From Leptospiraceae bacterium (lineage in GTDB: Bacteria; Spirochaetota; Leptospiria; Leptospirales; Leptonemataceae): a DNA stretch of 64,000 nucleotides. The DNA is taken from assembly GCA_025059995.1 (NCBI GenBank), contig JANXCF010000002.1, positions 186,001 through 250,000 of the forward strand, written 5' to 3'. Below are positions 1 through 31,826 of the stretch, in pieces. Below the pieces are notes generated by a model that was not told the DNA's origin, did not search any database, and saw nothing but the letters and a program-made list of their open reading frames with translations. Every line of letters begins with the position of its first letter. The first letter of the stretch is position 1. The translations under genes and the position numbers were made by a program.

Positions 1-1
1 T

Positions 2-706
2 CTTCTTTTTATCGTTTTGATTGCTTTTACAGTAATACTTTCTCAGGGTGTGAGAAAAATCCCATTACAGTATGGGAAACGAATTGTGGGAAGAAGATTA
101 GTTCAGGCTCAAAGTCAAAGTTTACAATTTAAATTAAATTCTGCAAACGTGATGCCTATTATCTTTGCATCGTCATTACTTTTATTCCCACAAACCATTT
201 TTGGGATGTTAGGTTCACAGGCTCAATCTTGGATTGGATGGCAAATCCTACAAGAATGGTTGAATCCGTTTGCTCCCTCTTTTTGGCAACAACTTCCGTA
301 TTATATATTGTATTCAGGCTTGATCATTTTCTTTGCATATTTTTACACTGCTGTATATATCAACCCTCAAGAACTATCAGAAAATTTAAAAAAATACGGA
401 GGATACATTCCTGGAGTAAGACCAGGTGTTCAAACAAAAGAATACTTAGAAAAAGTATTAAATCGTATCATTTTACCGGGGGCTATTTTTCTTTCAGGGC
501 TTGCTATAGCTCCTTACCTTATAATTAACATGATGGATTTAAAGGCAAATCAAAACATACAGGGATTAGCTTATACCTTTGGTGGAACTTCTTTACTTAT
601 CATGGTGGGAGTAGCCCTTGACACCTTAAAGCAATTAGAAGCTCAGCTTATTATGAGAAATTATCAAGGATTTATGAAAAAAGGAAAACTAAAGGGAAGA
701 ACATGA
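2..706 (+). CDS. secY: Protein translocase subunit SecY, C-terminal half (5' truncated)
   Basis: SecY forms the protein-conducting channel of the Sec translocon in the inner membrane. The reading frame is open to the left edge of the window, so the gene starts upstream; about 235 C-terminal residues are visible. They contain several hydrophobic helices, the [13 protein letters not shown] stretch typical of the helix 7 region, and the usual polar C-terminal tail around [14 protein letters not shown]. The stop overlaps the adk start by four bases (ATGA), so the two are probably translationally coupled. The spc-operon order secY-adk-infA-rpmJ supports the call. Confidence 0.97.
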
Positions 707-1269
707 AAATCATTGTTTTTATGGGACCACCTGGTGCTGGAAAAGGAACTCAAGCTAAAATCATTTGTCAACAATTACAAATACCCCAAATTTCAACCGG
801 TGATATTTTAAGAAAAGCCATACAAGATCAAACGGAATTGGGGATGCAAGCCAAATCCTATATGGACAAAGGAGAACTCGTTCCTGACTCTGTTGTCGTT
901 GGAATTGTTGAAGAACGTATAAAACAAGATGATTGTAAAAATGGATTTCTTTTGGATGGATTTCCAAGAACTATCAATCAAGCCATCGAATTGGAAAAGA
1001 TGTTAGAAAAGCTTGAGAAAAAAATCAATGTAGTAATTAATATTGACGTTCCTGAAGAAGAACTAGTTAAAAGACTTTTAAATCGTGCGAAAATCGAGAA
1101 TCGGTCCGATGACACAGAACCAGTAATTCGAAATCGGATGAGGACCTATTTTCAACAAACCTATCCGTTAATTGAATTTTATCAGAAAAAGGGGTTGCTT
1201 GTCAACATAGACGGCATGGGAACCATTGAAGAGATCACGGAAAGAATCATTACCAACATCAAAAACTGA
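703..1269 (+). CDS. adk: Adenylate kinase (short-LID form)
   Basis: Converts ATP plus AMP to two ADP in the cytoplasm. The P-loop [10 protein letters not shown] is at residues 8-17 and the AMP/ATP-site DGFPRT follows near residue 85. At 188 residues this is the short form: the LID segment after NRAKIENR is brief and has no zinc-binding cysteines. The ATG overlaps the secY stop, and the position between secY and infA is the classic bacterial arrangement. Confidence 0.97.
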
Positions 1270-1309
1270 ATGACAAAAATAAAAATTAAAAAATCTTGGC
1301 TTTTTAGGT

Positions 1310-1528
1310 ATGTCAAAAGAAGAGCCCATAGTAGTTGAAGGAAAAGTGATTGAAAATTTGCCAAATGCCATGTTTCGAGTTGAATTGGATAATGGTCATA
1401 AAGTATTAGCTCACATTTCAGGAAAAATGAGAATGCATTACATACGAATTTTGCCTGGTGATAGAGTACGAGTGGAATTATCACCCTATGATTTGACAAG
1501 AGGACGTATCACATATAGAATCCAATAG
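1310..1528 (+). CDS. infA: Translation initiation factor IF-1
   Basis: A 72-residue protein made of a single OB-fold that binds the ribosomal A site during initiation. The start [17 protein letters not shown] and the motif [19 protein letters not shown] are typical of IF-1, and the length matches the family. It lies between adk and rpmJ as in most bacterial spc/alpha junctions. Confidence 0.97.
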
Positions 1529-1545
1529 AGAATTTGAGGTAAAAT

Positions 1546-1659
1546 ATGAAAGTTAGAGCTTCAGTGAAGAAAATTTGCAGTGATTGTAAAATCATTCGAA
1601 GAAAAGGAGTGGTTCGAGTAATTTGTAAAAACCCAAAGCATAAGCAAAGGCAGGGGTAA
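1546..1659 (+). CDS. rpmJ: 50S ribosomal protein L36
   Basis: A 37-residue ORF starting [15 protein letters not shown]. It has the zinc-ribbon ligands of the zinc-binding L36 type: Cys11, Cys14, Cys27 and His32. A GAGGT ribosome binding site lies 6 bases upstream of the ATG. Length, motif and position between infA and rpsM all fit; small genes like this are easily missed by length cut-offs. Confidence 0.96.
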
Positions 1660-1679
1660 AATAAAAAAGGAGAAAAAGG

Positions 1680-2048
1680 ATGGCAAGGATAGCTGGGGTT
1701 GATTTACCAAAAGAAAAAAGAGTGGAAATAGGTTTGACATACATTTACGGGATAGGAAGAACACGTTCACAAATAATTTTAGACTCACTCAAAATCAATC
1801 GAGACAAAAAAGTAAAAGATTTAACTGATCAAGAAATTGCTGCTATCAAAGATTTCATTGAGAAAAATTATCGTGTTGAAGGTGATTTGAGAACAGAAGT
1901 AAGTTTAAACATCAAAAGGTTAATGGAAATTGGATGTTACCGAGGACTGCGTCATCGTATGGGACTTCCTGTTCGAGGACAAAGGACAAGAACAAATGCC
2001 AGAACAAGAAAAGGTGCGAGAAAAACCGTGCCTAATAAGAAAAAATAA
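1680..2048 (+). CDS. rpsM: 30S ribosomal protein S13
   Basis: A 122-residue protein of the small-subunit head. It begins [19 protein letters not shown], has the helix-two-turn-helix segment [10 protein letters not shown], and ends in the basic tail containing [21 protein letters not shown]-type sequence directly precedes the start. First gene of the alpha-operon group in this window. Confidence 0.97.
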
Positions 2049-2065
2049 AGCAAGAGGAGAAAAGA

Positions 2066-2437
2066 ATGGCATCGAAGAAAAAAGAAAAACGAAATGTTCC
2101 AAGTGGAAGGATTTATATCAATGCTACATATAATAATACGATTGTAACCGTTACAGACGAACAAGGGAATGTGATTTGTTGGGCAAGTGCAGGACAATCC
2201 TTTAAAGGAACGAGGAAGTCAACTCCTTTTGCTGCACAAGTAACAGCAAAAGAAGCAATGCAAAAAGCAAAGGAATTCGGTTTTCGTGAAGCAGATATTC
2301 TTGTGAAAGGTCCAGGCTTGGGAAGAGAATCAGCCATCAAAGCCATAGCAAATGAAGGAATCAAAATACGAATGATCAAGGACATAACTCCTATTCCTCA
2401 TAATGGATGTAGACCTCCTAAAAAAAGACGAGTTTAA
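2066..2437 (+). CDS. rpsK: 30S ribosomal protein S11
   Basis: A 123-residue platform protein of the 30S subunit. It shows the conserved stretches [37 protein letters not shown] and the C-terminal [13 protein letters not shown]. Only 30 bases separate it from rpoA, so rpsD, which usually sits here in the alpha operon, is absent from this position. Confidence 0.97.
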
Positions 2438-2467
2438 AACAACTTACATTACCTTGAGGAATACATT

Positions 2468-3460
2468 ATGAGATTTTTGATCCGACCACTAAAAAAACCT
2501 AAATCTATACAATACGAGACTATAGAAAATCAACCCAATTATGGTAAGTTTGTCATAGAACCTTTTGAACGGGGTTTTGCGGTAACAATAGGAAATGCTT
2601 TGAGAAGAACCTTGCTATCATCAATAGAAGGGAGTGCTATAACGGCTGTGAAGATTCAGGGTGTTGAACATGAATTTAGCACCATTCCAGGAGTACTTGA
2701 AGATGTCACGAGAATCATACTCAATTTAAAAAGAGTTCGATTGATTTACGATACAGAAAAAAAAGATGAAGCTAAAATTCTTCATATAGAAAAACATGGC
2801 GCTGGAGTACTAACAGCAGGAGATTTAGCGGTAGACTCAGCCATACAAATATTGAATCCTGATTTAGTAATAGCTACTCTAAACGAAGATGCAGATTTAA
2901 TTATGGATATACAGGTTGAGCGTGGAAGAGGATATGTTCCTGCGGAATTGATAAAAAAAAATTCAGAGGTAATTGGCACTATAGCCGTTGATGCATTATT
3001 TTCACCAATACAAAAAGTAAATTTCACTGTAGAAGAAACAAGAAAAGACTCAAGAAGTGATTTAGAGAGATTAATATTAGAAATTTGGACCGATTCTTCT
3101 ATCAAACCAAAAGATGCATTAAGTCAAGCAGCTAAAATTCTACGAGATAATTTAGCTGTCTTTGTTAATTTACAAGATGTTCAAGAAGATGAAGAAGAAG
3201 CTGAACATCCAGCTATTGAAGAGTCGTTGAAGAATAACTTAGAAAAACATGTGGAAGAATTAGAATTCTCAGTAAGAACGTTGTCTTTGTTAAAGTCTCT
3301 AGAAATTGAATTTGTTATCGACTTAGTAAAAAGGATGGAAGATGAATTTCAAAAATCAAAGCATTACTCAAAAGAATGTATAGAAGAAATTAAGGAAAAA
3401 TTATCAGCTCTTAATTTAGAATTGGGAATGAAAGATATACCTTACATAAGGGAAACCTAA
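2468..3460 (+). CDS. rpoA: DNA-directed RNA polymerase alpha subunit
   Basis: A 330-residue subunit with normal length. The N-terminal assembly domain contains [25 protein letters not shown] and [16 protein letters not shown] linker rich in Glu/Asp (about residues 235-250) leads to an alpha-CTD starting near [17 protein letters not shown]. It assembles beta and beta' and contacts upstream promoter DNA and activators. Flanked by rpsK and rplQ as expected for the alpha operon. Confidence 0.97.
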
Positions 3461-24291: not shown

Positions 24292-24807
24292 ATGGCGGAT
24301 GATTTTGAAGAATCCACATTGAGTGAAGAGCAGTTAGATGCGCTTTTAGGTTCTAGCGACATTGGAGCGAATTTAGGAAAGCAAAGTGATTCTTCAGCAG
24401 AAATTCAACAAATAACGGATCTTTTGAACAACCTTCCTCAATCTGATGTTACAATCAGTGATGAAGATTTACGTAATGTTTCTTTGGGAGAATTTGGAGG
24501 TACTCTTTTTACTGCATCTCCTACGGTAGATACAACGGAAGTTCAAAAGGCAGGAGTCGATTTAAAAACATTATATGATATTAATGTTCGTTTTGTTGTT
24601 GAATTAGGAAGGACATTTTTGTTTATTAAGGACATAATCCATTTGGGGGAAGGTTCCATCATTGAATTGGATAAAAACGTGGGGGATGAAGTGGATATTT
24701 ACATTAACGAACGATTGTTTGGTAGAGGACGATTAATCATAGTTGATGAATATTATGGTGTTCAAATCACACAAATTCTAAATCCAGCCTTATTTAAAAA
24801 TGTATAA
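24292..24807 (+). CDS. fliN: Flagellar motor switch protein FliN
   Basis: 171 residues. A variable N-terminal part contains LSEEQLDALL, the short motif used by FliM/FliN to bind partners, and a Ser/Asp-rich linker. The C-terminal ~80 residues are the SpoA domain (LYDINVRFVVELGRTFLFIKD, DKNVGDEVDIYINERLFGRG). It forms the C-ring that sets rotation sense. It precedes cheA by 113 bases. Confidence 0.88.
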   Translation: MADDFEESTLSEEQLDALLGSSDIGANLGKQSDSSAEIQQITDLLNNLPQSDVTISDEDLRNVSLGEFGGTLFTASPTVDTTEVQKAGVDLKTLYDINVRFVVELGRTFLFIKDIIHLGEGSIIELDKNVGDEVDIYINERLFGRGRLIIVDEYYGVQITQILNPALFKNV

Positions 24808-24920: not shown

Positions 24921-27053
24921 ATGGATCGGGAAGTATTATTTCATCAAATTCATGCCAATATTAGAGAAATCGAAAAGGGAAACTTAGTAAAAGTTATTGA
25001 ACTCCAAAATTCTTTGTCAGAGTTAGCAGAAACAATCCAAACTGAAGAAAAAGAAAAACTACAAACTATCATGAAAGAAATACCAAAACAAATCAAATAT
25101 CCTCAAAAATTAGAGAAAACTCTATCGGATTTAAAAGAAGTTATAGAAAAGTATTTACCCGAATCAAGCATTCAAAATGAAAATCAAGAAAATATAAAAT
25201 TCGAAAGTGCTATCAGCACTTCTACAAGACAAGAAGAATCAGAACTTTACTCATCAAATTATTTTGATCAACTAACAGATGATTTGGAGCTTTTAAGAAA
25301 GTTTTATTATGAAACAAAAGAGCATTTAGATAACATCCAAATCAATTTGATTGAGTTAGAATATGATCCAAGAAGCAAAGAAATATTAAATCAAATCTTT
25401 CGAAGTGTACATACCATTAAGGGATCTTCTGGTTTTTTGGGTTTAAAAAATTACGAAGATATATGCCACACGATTGAAGAAATTTTCGCTAAAGCTCGTG
25501 ATGGTAAGATTTATCTAAGCAAAGAATTGATTGATATAATCTTCTTGGGGATAAAGCTCCTTCAAACATTACAAGATGTTTTTTTTATAGAAATCCAATC
25601 TAAGGAATTTGATATTCAAAGATTAATCAAAGAATTCAAAACGATAAATATATTTAGTTACGTTAAAATCATGAAGGAAATTGCTTCTAAGTTAGAATAC
25701 AAAAAGTTAGGGGAAATCCTACAAGAAGAAGGAAAACTTCAGTTAGAACAATTAGAAAAAATTTTACAAAAACAAAAAGAACAACATCAACCCTTTGGGC
25801 AAATAGCCATAAAAGATGGATATATCAAATCAGACGACTTAGAAAAAGCCTTAAAAAAACAAGAAAGAATCAAAAAGAAAATTTTAGAAGGTCATTACGT
25901 AAAAGTGGCAAGTCATAAATTAAATACATTAGTAGACTTAGTAGGGGAGTTAGTAATCAATCAATCGATCCTAAAACAAGAAATTTTTGATTTGAAATCG
26001 AAATACAAAATTGATTTTTCGGATAGGACATTGAACCAGATCGACATGATCACTTCAATGGTTAAAAACATTGTTTTGACATTGGGAATGCTACCTATTA
26101 GGGAATTATTTAATAAGCTCAAAGTGGTAGCAAGAAACACTGCAAAAGAACTAAATAAAATTGTAACTACAGAAACCAAAGGAGAAGAAACGGAATTGGA
26201 CCGTAGCGTAATAGAACTTTTGTATGAACCAATGATTCATATTTTGAGAAATGCTATTGATCATGGAATTGAAACCATAGAAGAGCGTTTACAAAAAAAC
26301 AAATCCAAAACAGGAAAGATTCAACTCATGGCAGAAAACAAAGGAAGTGAAGTTTGGATCACAGTTGAAGATGATGGTAGAGGTATTCAGAAGCAAAAAA
26401 TTTTGAAAAAAGCCGTCGAGATGCATGTGATTTCTGAAGAAAATGCCGTGAACTTAAACGAACGACAAGTGTATGAGCTTATGTTTGTTCCAGGACTTAC
26501 CACAAAAGAAGAAACCACCTCTATCTCTGGGAGAGGAGTTGGATTGGATGTAGTGAAGAGAGCAATCGAGTCCTTACAAGGAAAAATAGAAATCCAAAGT
26601 AAAGAAGGAGAATTCTGTCGTTGGATTTTAAAAATTCCTCTAACTTTAGCGATTATTGATGGTTTTGTCGTAAAAGTTCTACAAACAAACTTTGTATTCC
26701 CTTTTCAGTATATCGAAGAAGTTTATGTATTCGATCGCTTTGAAGTATTGAATCAGGAACAATTGTTTGTTCGAAAGGAGGGTGTTTTGATGCCTGTCTA
26801 TTTTTTTGAAGAAATTTTACTCGACAAAGGAATACCAAAGCAAAAAGGCATTTATCAATCTTTAGTGATAAAATACGAAAATCAAAAAGTCTGTATCGTT
26901 GTGGATGAAATCATAGGAAAGCAAGAAATTGTGATACGCAATTTAGGAGCTCTAGTGAAAAATCATCTCTATGCTGGTGGAACCATTTTTGGAGACGGAA
27001 GCATTGGTTTTGTTATTGATATTGAAAATTTAATGGAGAAATTGTTAAGCTAA
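24921..27053 (+). CDS. cheA: Chemotaxis histidine kinase CheA with a GspE-N-like domain in place of P2
   Basis: 710 residues. An N-terminal helical extension (~1-110) precedes the Hpt domain, whose phospho-accepting His164 lies in VHTIKGSSGFLG. Residues ~261-320 (LGEILQEEG ... FGQIAIKDGYIKSDDLEKAL) resemble the N-terminal module of GspE/PilB-type ATPases (T2SSE_N/MshEN), where a CheY-binding P2 domain is usual. Dimerisation and kinase domains follow, with N-box ILRNAIDHGIE, DDGRGI and GRGVGLDVVK, then a CheW-like regulatory domain. It phosphorylates CheY, and heads a cheA-Y-W-mcp operon. Confidence 0.93.
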   Translation: MDREVLFHQIHANIREIEKGNLVKVIELQNSLSELAETIQTEEKEKLQTIMKEIPKQIKYPQKLEKTLSDLKEVIEKYLPESSIQNENQENIKFESAISTSTRQEESELYSSNYFDQLTDDLELLRKFYYETKEHLDNIQINLIELEYDPRSKEILNQIFRSVHTIKGSSGFLGLKNYEDICHTIEEIFAKARDGKIYLSKELIDIIFLGIKLLQTLQDVFFIEIQSKEFDIQRLIKEFKTINIFSYVKIMKEIASKLEYKKLGEILQEEGKLQLEQLEKILQKQKEQHQPFGQIAIKDGYIKSDDLEKALKKQERIKKKILEGHYVKVASHKLNTLVDLVGELVINQSILKQEIFDLKSKYKIDFSDRTLNQIDMITSMVKNIVLTLGMLPIRELFNKLKVVARNTAKELNKIVTTETKGEETELDRSVIELLYEPMIHILRNAIDHGIETIEERLQKNKSKTGKIQLMAENKGSEVWITVEDDGRGIQKQKILKKAVEMHVISEENAVNLNERQVYELMFVPGLTTKEETTSISGRGVGLDVVKRAIESLQGKIEIQSKEGEFCRWILKIPLTLAIIDGFVVKVLQTNFVFPFQYIEEVYVFDRFEVLNQEQLFVRKEGVLMPVYFFEEILLDKGIPKQKGIYQSLVIKYENQKVCIVVDEIIGKQEIVIRNLGALVKNHLYAGGTIFGDGSIGFVIDIENLMEKLLS

Positions 27054-27062
27054 GGAGTTCTT

Positions 27063-27431
27063 ATGAAGCATATCCTTTTGGCGGATGATTCAGAGATCAT
27101 TTTGGATATTGTGAAAAAAACTTTGACTATGTATTTTAAAGATTATAGCATATTAGAAGCTAAAGACGGAAAAGATGCATTAGAAAAAGCAAAAACATAC
27201 AAAGATGATATACGTTTGTATGTCTTGGATGTAAATATGCCTCATATTGATGGTATTAGTTTAATCAAGCACATTAGAAGTTTTGATAAGGAAACACCGA
27301 TACTTATGTTAACGACAGAAGTGGAAAAAGCGAAAATTGAGAAAGCAAAAGAATATGGAGCAACAGGTTGGATTGTTAAACCTTTTGAAGGAGAAAAATT
27401 CATTCAAATCGTAAAGATGTTGTTAGAATGA
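27063..27431 (+). CDS. cheY: Chemotaxis response regulator CheY
   Basis: A 122-residue single receiver domain. Acidic pocket Asp8/Asp9, phospho-acceptor Asp56 in YVLDVNMP, Thr84/85 in LMLTTE and Lys106 in VKPF are all in place. Phospho-CheY should bind the flagellar switch (FliM/FliN). Preceded by GGAGTTCTT ribosome binding sequence, 9 bases after cheA; cheW follows after one base. Confidence 0.93.
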   Translation: MKHILLADDSEIILDIVKKTLTMYFKDYSILEAKDGKDALEKAKTYKDDIRLYVLDVNMPHIDGISLIKHIRSFDKETPILMLTTEVEKAKIEKAKEYGATGWIVKPFEGEKFIQIVKMLLE

Positions 27432-27432
27432 T

Positions 27433-27909
27433 ATGAACGAAATTAAAAACAAATACTTGGTTTTTACAATTGAAAAAGAACAATTTGCAATCTCTTTACC
27501 TCTTGTTCAAGAAGTCATAAGTTATCAGCCCATTTATCCTCTGTATGATGTTTCTTCTTATTTAAAGGGTGTGATCAATCTTAGAGGGAAAATCATTCCT
27601 GTTTTGGATCTACGTTTGAAGTTTGGACTGCCAGAAGTTGCTTATACTGAGAGAACGATTTTTATTATTATTAACTTGGAAAGCGAGAATCAGAGTTCTT
27701 TATTAGGATTAGTAGTTGATAGTGTTAAAGACGTGATCACTCTTGATGAAAGTGAAATCCAACAACCCCATGAAATTGGCTTTAAATTCAAAAGCAAATA
27801 CATTCATGGTATAGCCCAATACCATGATGATGTAGTAATCATATTAGATATTCAGAAAATCCTTACCACGGAGGAAATCATCGAACTTCATGAACAAATA
27901 AAGGAGTAG
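27433..27909 (+). CDS. cheW: Chemotaxis coupling protein CheW
   Basis: 158 residues of the CheW SH3-like double barrel: YLVFTIEKEQFAISL at the start, SSYLKGVINLRGKIIPVLDLR in the middle, and LGLVVDSVKDVI near the second subdomain. It links CheA to receptors. Between cheY and an MCP gene. Confidence 0.93.
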   Translation: MNEIKNKYLVFTIEKEQFAISLPLVQEVISYQPIYPLYDVSSYLKGVINLRGKIIPVLDLRLKFGLPEVAYTERTIFIIINLESENQSSLLGLVVDSVKDVITLDESEIQQPHEIGFKFKSKYIHGIAQYHDDVVIILDIQKILTTEEIIELHEQIKE

Positions 27910-27912
27910 TTT

Positions 27913-29550
27913 ATGTTTAAAAACAAAACAGTTCAAACACAATTGATCATGGCTTTTGGTCTGGTTTTTTTAGGATTTGTTGTTGTTTTAGGTTTGTCTG
28001 GATTTACTGTATTTAAACTCTACAACTCTATAAAAGAATTATCAGATGTAAGTATTCCTTCTATTCATAGTATTTTTGATGTTGAAATTGCTGTAGTGAA
28101 TCAACGTCGTAGTATTTTGGCATTTTATGCTGAATACAAAACGGGTGGCATGGATCTAAAACGAAGATTGGATAATCTGAAAGAAGCTATAGACTTTGAG
28201 GATAAATCATATAAGATTTACGATCCTATTGTGAGAACTGAAGAAGAAGATCAGATTTATCAAAAAGTATTAAAAGTGAAAGAGGAATATCACAATGAGT
28301 TAAACAAAATATATAATAAGATGGAAGAAGCTATTCGAACAAATGATGAAGAACAGAGAGAAAAAATCATCGAGCAAATTGGCAGCTATGCAATGAGAGG
28401 AAAGTATTTTGAAATATCTGTACAATATATTGATCTTGTTGATGAATTAGTTGACTATGTAGTGAAATACTATGGTCAAGATCAGCCTAGGGAAATATTA
28501 AAGCAAAGTAATTTTTTAATGATATTATTGTTGGTGTTAACAATTGTTATTTTTGTATTTATTATTTTGGTTTCTATTATGATGGGAAGAAATTTAACGA
28601 ATATTTTATCTAAAATAATCCATAGTTTAGTTGATTCATCGGATTATGTTCAAAAGGCAACAGATCAAGTGAGTAGATCCTCGCAAGTTTTGTCGTCCCA
28701 ATCAAGTCAATTAGCAAGCTTGGTAGAGGAAATCACAGCAAGTATAGAAGAACTTCAATCCATCATCGATTCCAACAGTAAAAGCGTTAATGAAGGAAAA
28801 ACTCTTATGGAAGATACCGTGCAAAACACAGAAACTACCAAGAAAAATTCTCAAGATTTATTACAAGCGATGAATCAAATTATAGAAAATGCAAAAAAAA
28901 TCAACAAAATCAACAAAGCCATTGAGGACATAGCTTTTCAAACAAATATATTGGCACTTAATGCCGCAGTAGAAGCTGCAAGAGCAGGAGATGCAGGAAG
29001 AGGATTCGCCGTTGTTGCAGATCAAGTAAAATCCTTAGCTCAAAAAAGTGCGGAATCTTCTAAAGAAACTATGGATTTGATTTTATCAATCCAAGAAAGT
29101 ATAGAAAAAGGTCAAGATAAATTGCAGCAAACAATGGAAGCATTACATAAAACGAGTGAAAGTATTAATAAACTTTTAGTTCTTTTGAATGAAGTTGTTG
29201 TGGCTTTCAAAGAACAAGCAAAAGGAGCTCAGCAAATTACGTCTTCAATTTCTCAAATCAATCAATCCACTCAATTTATTGCATCGAGTTCAGAAGAAAA
29301 CGCTTCTTTAGCCGAAGAATTACAATCTCAAATCATGCAGATAAATGGCACTATCAATGAATTAAACAGATTAATAAAAAAACCAAACGAACAGGAACTA
29401 AAAACAACCAACCAGAAACTTCCCGAAACAGAAAAACGAATAGTGAAGAAACAAGAACCAGTTCAAGCAAAATTAAAAACCATACATATAAAACCCGAAG
29501 ATAAAATTCCTTTAGAAGATTTAGAATTCAAGGATTTTAAGGATTTTTAG
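27913..29550 (+). CDS. Methyl-accepting chemotaxis protein
   Basis: 545 residues. One transmembrane helix near residues 12-35, a ~155-residue helical periplasmic sensor (four-helix-bundle type), and a second transmembrane helix near 200-225 ([18 protein letters not shown]). I see no clear HAMP domain after it. The signalling hairpin contains the invariant [33 protein letters not shown]. The C terminus ends EFKDFKDF, not a typical NWETF pentapeptide. Receptor of the che operon. Confidence 0.9.
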
Positions 29551-31014
29551 ATGAAGTTTCGAACTATGCGGAGAAGTTTATTAATCGCTACAATCATAGT
29601 TTTATTAGAAGTGATAATGGTTTTTATTCTTTTTTTTGTTCCAGATAGAGTTCAGTATTCATTGGTCTTATTTAAATTTCTCATCACAATAGGGCTTTTT
29701 TTGTATTTGATGTTTAATTATAGTAAAATATGCAGAACTCAGTTTGATATACAGAGATTATTATTGTCTAAAATTAAAGAGCCTCAACTAACTAATAAAA
29801 ATATTTTGTTGAAATTAGAGTCGAGCCTACATCAGCTAAAAGACTCAGATGTGGCTCAAGATTTTTTTAAGAACTTCAAGGAAGAATTTGAAAGTCTAAA
29901 GCAATTAGAAAAAGATATAGAACATGAAGATGTATATGAAAGTTTAAGGAGCCATTTAGAACATGAAGAAAAAATACAAAAAATCTATGAAGGATATTTA
30001 AATCTCACTATTAGAATAATCGAAAAATTGACAAATAGAGAGTTATACCTAATTTTCATAGCAATTGAGATTATTATTGATTTTTTTAATGAATATGTTC
30101 GTTCTTTTTTTGCAGATATAAATACTCTATACCTTGATGTTCATAATTTATCAAGTGATTTTAATTTTCGTCATGAAGAGTTAAATCAAGAACTCCAAAA
30201 AATGCAAGAAACCTCAAAAATCACAAGTGATTTGCTATTAGAACAAAACCAAAAAATGCTGAATTTCTTTGAGTTTATAAAAAACTTCCAACAAAAAAAC
30301 ATAACTTTTACAGAGTCAATTTCAAAAGATTATGAAAAGAATTTAGAATTAGTAAAAAACATTCAAGATATAGCTGAGCGGATGAAGATGCTTTCTTTGA
30401 ATCTTTCCATTGAAGCAAATCGAGGAGGATCCAACAAAGTGTTTGATGTTTTGGCACAGGAACTACAAAATTTCACGGAGAAAATACAAACATTCTCTCA
30501 AAAAATTCGAGAAGAAATCAATAACAACAATAATAAAATAAAACAAGAAGTTCAATATCACTTGGAAGAAATTCAGAAAGAAAATAGTATTATTAACGAT
30601 ATAGAAAATGTCTATTCAAAAATCCAAAAGGAATTTTCGGATTTCCATCAATTAAATGAATCCACCATTATAAAAACAAGAGAAGCTCTAAATGAAAGCA
30701 AAAATATGTTAATTGAAATTTTTAATCACTATCAATCTATCATAGTTGAAAAGGGAGCTGTAAATAATTTCAGTGAGTATTTAAAAGAAGTTCACAAAGA
30801 ATACGAAATAAACTTAAAACAAATGCAAGAAATTATCTTTCGCGAAGAAGATTATCAAATCTTAGTCCGAAAAATAATAGAAAACTATAGCAAACGAATC
30901 AATACAGAAAAAGAATTAAAAATCTTACTCAATCTTTGTGATAAATATCAAGTTCCTGAATTAAAACAAGAAATTCAATCCCGATTTACCACAAAAGATG
31001 TTATTATTTTTTAA
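29551..31014 (+). CDS. Degenerate MCP-like membrane coiled-coil protein
   Basis: 487 residues, starting one base after the MCP stop. Two hydrophobic helices close to the N terminus (about 8-30 and 38-56) with almost no periplasmic loop, followed by a long helical region. Around residues 270-310 it has IQDIAERMKMLSLNLSIEANRGG ... VFDVLAQELQNF, a clearly degraded copy of the MCP signalling tip (normally QTNLLALNAAIEAARAGE ... FAVVAEVR). So it may bind CheA/CheW weakly, act as a decoy, or sense something internal. Sits between mcp and cheR. Confidence 0.75.
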   Translation: MKFRTMRRSLLIATIIVLLEVIMVFILFFVPDRVQYSLVLFKFLITIGLFLYLMFNYSKICRTQFDIQRLLLSKIKEPQLTNKNILLKLESSLHQLKDSDVAQDFFKNFKEEFESLKQLEKDIEHEDVYESLRSHLEHEEKIQKIYEGYLNLTIRIIEKLTNRELYLIFIAIEIIIDFFNEYVRSFFADINTLYLDVHNLSSDFNFRHEELNQELQKMQETSKITSDLLLEQNQKMLNFFEFIKNFQQKNITFTESISKDYEKNLELVKNIQDIAERMKMLSLNLSIEANRGGSNKVFDVLAQELQNFTEKIQTFSQKIREEINNNNNKIKQEVQYHLEEIQKENSIINDIENVYSKIQKEFSDFHQLNESTIIKTREALNESKNMLIEIFNHYQSIIVEKGAVNNFSEYLKEVHKEYEINLKQMQEIIFREEDYQILVRKIIENYSKRINTEKELKILLNLCDKYQVPELKQEIQSRFTTKDVIIF

Positions 31015-31826
31015 TGGAAGTCAAGCTCAAAGACTCTACTTTTCGTAAATTGAAAAAGGTTTTCTATGAGCTTACTGGGATTGAATTGAAAGAAAAAAAA
31101 TATTTGGTAGAAAATCGATTGGCAAAATATATCGGAGAGGATCGTGCCTACAAAACATATGAAGAATTTTATGAAGCAGTTCTAAAAGACAAAACGGGGG
31201 AAGTAAAGAATTTACTTGTTCAATCATTAGTTACGAATTATACGTTTTTTTTTCGTGATCCGATACATTTTGCTTTTGTGCGTTGGTATATCCGAAATTT
31301 TTACAACCAGCAAGAATACTTACACATTTGGTCGAATGGATGTTCCACAGGAGAAGAAGCCTATAGCATCGTAATTTCTGCTTTGTTAGAAAAACCTGAT
31401 TTATCAAACGAAAAGTTCAAAGTTTTAGCAACCGATGTTTCCAAAGAAAACATACAAAAAGCCATCAAGGGAACCTATGAGAGCTGGAAGATGTCTTATG
31501 TGAAATCAAAAAAAAATATATTACATGGTTTTTTTCAGTATCATTCCTCAGAAGATTTTTATATCGTCAAACCACAAGTAAGAAGTTTTGTTTACTTTCG
31601 CATTTTGAATGTTTTATCACCTTATCCTTTCACAAAGGAATTTGATATTGTCTTTTTGCGAAATGTTTTGATTTATTTTGATCAATCCGAAAGAGAAGAG
31701 ATCATAAATAAAATTTATCATTTTACGAAACGAAATGGATATCTTGTTCTGGGATTGTCAGAAAATTTGATTGGAATTACAAGTCCCTTTAAGCCTTTAA
31801 AGTATTCTATTTATAAAAAAACATAA
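31014..31826 (+). CDS. cheR: Chemotaxis protein methyltransferase CheR
   Basis: 270 residues. Helical N-terminal domain, then the SAM domain with LHIWSNGCSTGEEAYSIV, LATDVSKENIQKA and FDIVFLRNVLIYF. It methylates receptor glutamates. The start overlaps the preceding stop by one base (TAATG). No cheB or cheD is in this cluster. Confidence 0.92.
   Translation: MEVKLKDSTFRKLKKVFYELTGIELKEKKYLVENRLAKYIGEDRAYKTYEEFYEAVLKDKTGEVKNLLVQSLVTNYTFFFRDPIHFAFVRWYIRNFYNQQEYLHIWSNGCSTGEEAYSIVISALLEKPDLSNEKFKVLATDVSKENIQKAIKGTYESWKMSYVKSKKNILHGFFQYHSSEDFYIVKPQVRSFVYFRILNVLSPYPFTKEFDIVFLRNVLIYFDQSEREEIINKIYHFTKRNGYLVLGLSENLIGITSPFKPLKYSIYKKT

Follow-up and report, generated by a model that had tools for sequence, protein, structure and literature searches.

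A cheA gene in a 64,000-nucleotide stretch of Leptospiraceae DNA (the window) raises the question of what a GspE/PilB-type MshEN module does in a chemotaxis kinase without a P2 domain, and in particular whether it serves to bind c-di-GMP or a protein partner. P2, the CheY-binding domain, is usual in CheA but not universal. The known links between c-di-GMP and chemotaxis run through receptors, adaptation methylation, CheY-like proteins, and the motor, or have CheA acting on c-di-GMP enzymes. Direct binding of c-di-GMP by CheA would make the second messenger a central element of the pathway.

The open reading frame at 24921..27053 (+ strand, as are all features of the window described here) encodes a complete CheA of 710 residues, identified by ORF and domain searches and comprising P1 with its phospho-histidine, P3, P4, and P5. 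Pfam matches fall on Hpt (residues 123-213), P3 (326-378), HATPase (438-575), and CheW (581-707). The domains were delimited as P1 (Hpt) at residues 118-222 (25272..25586; domain search, structure comparison, and alignment), the P3 dimerisation domain at 324-388 (25890..26084; Pfam and predicted model), the P4 ATPase domain at 392-576 (26094..26648; Pfam and structure comparison), and the CheW-like P5 domain at 577-708 (26649..27044; Pfam and structure comparison). P1 carries the phospho-acceptor His164 (25410-25412), which a sequence-only reading of this DNA had placed at the same residue and which is invariant in an alignment of 24 members of the clade described below. The interval between P1 and MshEN (∼222 to ∼258) is a short helical linker and nothing else, so that MshEN lies directly between P1 and P3. 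In the predicted model of residues 1-400, the last MshEN helix reaches residue 323 and is followed by a low-confidence loop (322-329) and by P3, whose helices (331-362 and 368-387) are separated by a 5-residue join. The product is a flagellar-type CheA in which P2 is absent and MshEN_N stands between P1 and P3. It shares P1, P3, P4, and P5 with the Thermotoga and E. coli enzymes, and differs from them in lacking P2 and in the addition of MshEN and an N-terminal extension. Assignment to the F2 class of Treponema, likewise a Spirochaetota CheA with a flagellar role (PMC7666581), was ruled out, as P3 in the predicted model is without the ∼50-residue insertion of that class; the CheW-CheR-like gene of F2 systems is also missing from this operon, in which CheW and CheR are separate genes.

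The identity of the module rests on both profile and fold. The NCBIfam model NF053729.1 ("cyclic di-GMP-binding domain-containing protein, MshE-related") matches residues 262-314 (25704..25862) over its full length (1-53), scoring 43 bits where 38 are required (E-value 2.8e-11), and it also matches all 24 clade members scanned; the E-value and this conservation together rule out a chance match. PF05157 gave no match on this cheA in a Pfam search of its own genome. Compared with the sequences of solved structures, the same region matches T. thermophilus PilF, other PilB ATPases, and V. cholerae MshE. It comprises two 24-residue motifs, motif I (262-285) and motif II (291-314), separated by a spacer of the canonical 5 residues (286-290), and its numbering is offset by 253 from that of V. 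cholerae MshE. The sequence-only reading had proposed a GspE/PilB-type module at about residues 261-320 with the T2SSE_N/MshEN pattern; the module itself stands, whereas its end moves to residue 314, and the c-di-GMP motif is present in its complete two-repeat, 53-residue form, which is more than a T2SSE_N-like pattern. An AlphaFold2 model of residues 246-324, built with 24 alignment rows, shows the four helices of the MshEN fold at a pLDDT of ∼90, and it superimposes on c-di-GMP-bound MshE and PilF GSPII-B, matching the ligand-bound structures 8pdk, 9glg, 8pfa, and 5htl with a probability of 1.0 and an rmsd of 0.6-0.8 Å over 53-54 residues. The best ten solved structures in a Foldseek search are all GSPII domains with c-di-GMP, which align over 53-56 columns at 0.6-0.9 Å, or 1.8 Å in the case of an NMR entry. 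Their E-values start at 0.15 and are not significant by themselves, owing to the small size of the domain. The module resembles those of MshE and of PilF GSPII-B and GSPII-C in its 24-residue motif pair, its 5-residue spacer, its modelled four-helix bundle, and both glycine and both glutamine contact positions. Unlike in MshE and PilF, it lies inside a histidine kinase rather than at the N-terminus of an ATPase, its second motif opens with Pro291 and Phe292, and the C-terminal MshEN_C α/β subdomain is missing. This last difference is no objection to binding, since the four-helix MshEN_N part of MshE binds c-di-GMP alone with a KD of 0.35 μM (PMC5013675).

The polar contacts to c-di-GMP in V. 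cholerae MshE are made by Gly11, Gln32, Gly40, and Gln61 (PMC5013675), and their equivalents in CheA are Gly264, Gln285, Gly293, and Gln314. Only seven of the 53 module columns are invariant across the 24 aligned clade members, and all four contacts are among them (p ∼1.2e-4 by chance, with columns taken as exchangeable and descent ignored). Mean pairwise identity over the module is 51%, with a minimum of 26%; in a comparison of this CheA with five orthologues sharing 41-54% identity with it, 11 of the 53 columns are invariant, the four contacts again included. Lys262 stands for Arg9 of MshE, Pro291 for Arg38, and Phe292 occupies the position of L39. Lysine also opens motif I of PilF GSPII-B, which has leucine at the first position of motif II and binds c-di-GMP with a KD of 6 nM, and Lys262 conforms to the R/K/L consensus to which the PilF authors extended this residue (PMC11731258). 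Pro291 lies outside the written consensus, though a proline of PilF GSPII-C, a domain that also binds c-di-GMP (PMC12002112), aligns with it at the first position of motif II. Changing both glutamines of PilF to glutamate abolished binding (PMC11731258), and among the eight changes to which the loss of binding by XpsE is attributed, only the R38 position is altered in CheA, and there to another residue. PilF GSPII-A shows that extension and capping of the first helix can leave a consensus motif unable to bind (PMC12002112). Taken together, these features make it very probable that the MshEN module of CheA binds c-di-GMP. The sequence-only reading had left a choice between c-di-GMP and a partner protein, and as judged from sequence the former is favoured, because the four polar contacts are invariant across divergent orthologues.

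The most serious alternative is that MshEN is a protein-docking platform that has replaced P2 and holds CheY or another partner, with ligand binding absent or secondary. The module does occupy the place of P2, as the sequence-only reading had recognised: neither PF07194 nor any other Pfam P2 model matched any of the 24 clade members (this CheA and 23 relatives), and a better P2 match was sought there without success. Proteins are also among the ligands of GSPII domains, as in 7lkm and 7lko, where PilZ is bound by the N-terminal domain of Xanthomonas PilB, and a dedicated cheY adjoins cheA in nearly all of the loci read. Against docking stands the invariance in 24 members of both glutamines and both glycines of the ligand site, set in an otherwise variable module; at least one CheA outside the clade (L015), moreover, appears to carry a P2-like region, from a weak match, in addition to MshEN. 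Docking without a central role for the ligand is considered unlikely.

If c-di-GMP binding is taken as the preferred reading, a mechanism can be proposed in which one molecule of c-di-GMP would bind the four-helix module and order its first helix together with Gln314. Since the last helix of the module runs to P3, the ligand could alter how easily P1, with its His164, gains access to the P4 ATPase and to CheY. Phosphorylation of CheY would thereby be set by the cellular level of c-di-GMP, added to the receptor input that arrives through P5 and CheW. We infer this gating of phosphotransfer, and its sign, solely from the position of the module and the order of the domains. As a whole, the mechanism of a c-di-GMP-gated CheA is given somewhat better than even odds. 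A broader proposal is that spirochaetes have a chemosensory class dedicated to this task, whose P2-less CheA takes c-di-GMP directly as an allosteric ligand that gates phosphotransfer from P1. It is judged to be evenly poised; if true, a single enzyme would unite chemotaxis with the switch between motile and sessile life.

Regulation of activity does not necessarily follow from binding, as the ATPase activity of MshE itself barely responds to c-di-GMP (PMC5013675). Instead of kinase catalysis, the ligand may affect location or array stability, by recruiting CheA to a pole or a membrane partner. The function of MshE in the cell does depend on c-di-GMP though its ATPase hardly changes (PMC5013675), and in Pseudomonas the pole is where CheA encounters c-di-GMP enzymes (PMC10212136). 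In all complete clade members, however, the module has the phospho-acceptor on one side and the dimerisation domain on the other and is not at a terminus, and an effect on location in place of catalysis is regarded as slightly less probable even than docking. The module might also be a decayed structural remnant that has no ligand and serves as a spacer, as the absence of arginine from the first position of motif II (Pro291) and the loss of the second-motif glycine G47 from most of the clade, though not from this CheA, might suggest. This is very improbable: invariance of the ligand contacts down to 26% module identity would not be expected of a relic, and the GspE MshEN of the same genome, which has lost Gln32, shows that such a module can decay where binding is no longer maintained.

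That GspE (L143, contig C4) contains the only other MshEN found in the host genome, with lysine in place of Gln32, which leaves CheA as the only MshEN found there with both glutamines; from its sequence, the GspE module probably binds c-di-GMP weakly or not at all. The host is equipped for c-di-GMP signalling, with 12 GGDEF, 7 EAL, and 2 PilZ matches in its genome. It also has two further CheA-type loci, both without MshEN. Another CheA of the host genome (L142, ORF 1-3189, - strand) is 1063 residues long and has a long C-terminal extension after P5.

Downstream of cheA, the operon encodes a single-receiver CheY (27063..27431; domain search, and next to cheA in orthologues), a 158-residue CheW (27433..27909), a chemoreceptor (MCP) with a 4HB sensor domain (27913..29550), a second MCP-like protein of 487 residues with a weak MCPsignal match (29551..31014), and a 270-residue CheR methyltransferase (31014..31826), the last four identified from domain searches and orthologous loci. 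The second MCP-like protein has divergent counterparts in several orthologous operons. In the orthologous loci read, cheA and its adjacent cheY are usually followed by cheW and mcp, and often by cheR. A FliN-type flagellar switch protein is encoded directly upstream of cheA (24292..24807; domain search); such a gene is found upstream of cheA in this window only and was not found upstream of the orthologues. A motif search detected no GGDEF, EAL, or HD-GYP gene in the window, and beside the orthologous operons the same motifs yielded one full-length GGDEF neighbour (L045) and an 80-residue fragment (L044). With such neighbours so scarce, there is no operon-level link to c-di-GMP enzymes.

The N-terminal extension (residues 1-112; 24921..25256), delimited by alignment and the predicted model, is without a Pfam match. 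The ∼110-residue helical extension that had been read ahead of the phospho-histidine is confirmed, being mostly helical in the model, with four predicted helices in residues 1-76 followed by a disordered linker, and common to the clade. A GD pair at residues 20-21 is conserved, and a Y/F-E-x-G-D-L motif is conserved near residues 17-22 of the extension across the clade. Profile comparison ruled out that the extension is a further copy of P1 or of MshEN (probability <1%), and a fold search with residues 1-400 returned mainly P1/Hpt and MshEN structures, the matches listed suggesting no established fold for the extension.

The distribution of this architecture was examined by scanning GTDB species genomes with an alignment of the MshEN-P3 stretch, which gave 80 loci. 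In the tree, the CheA of the window and 24 others form a clade of their own (SH-aLRT 100), whose members all come from Spirochaetota, so that the module which the sequence-only reading had suggested looking for in other spirochaete CheA proteins is indeed present in some of them. One of the 25 (L136) is labelled "other" in the tree and has a stop codon inside its matched locus. The canonical 5-residue spacer is found in 18 of 20 aligned members. The clade includes Brevinematales MAGs, a Treponema sp. MAG, and a Gracilinema caldarium MAG; a further, divergent member with the lowest MshEN score in the clade (L054) comes from a MAG labelled Brachyspira murdochii (isolate SulCav), a species label that looks doubtful. 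The gene occurs in 21 of 393 sampled Spirochaetota genomes and in two of four genomes of the genus of the window, and in none of the other family members listed. Such patchiness fits horizontal transfer or repeated loss. The G+C content of the operon (24921-31826) is 0.304, compared with 0.336 for the window and 0.355-0.358 for the flanks; together with the patchy clade, this makes horizontal transfer possible.

Beyond the clade, MshEN has been found with CheA before, such fusions being among those listed by Wang et al. 2016 (PMC5013675), and the present system is therefore not categorically new. What is new is a clade in which P2 is gone and the canonical site is kept. In a literature search that was thin on subscription journals, that paper was the only one found to mention MshEN on CheA; the search found no ligand-binding or kinase assay for any MshEN-CheA and no description of the P2-less spirochaetal clade. 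By domain mapping, MshEN directly precedes P3 in the CheA proteins of many phyla, including those of Geomonas, Deferribacterota, Nitrospirota, Desulfovibrionaceae, Planctomycetota, and others. These fusions resemble the CheA of the window in having MshEN directly before P3 together with P1, P3, P4, and P5. They fall outside its clade and mostly differ in retaining a stretch of usually ∼150 residues between P1 and MshEN and in having a 1-residue spacer between the motifs (50 of 66); 44 of the 66 retain Gln32, and the sole P2 signal seen among them is the weak, 15-bit match of L015. This very common form, with the spacer shortened to a single residue and the first glutamine often missing, is represented by L056, L075, L055, L014, and ∼50 other loci. 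One 919-residue spirochaete CheA (L010) has two Hpt domains and an MshEN-like module before P3.
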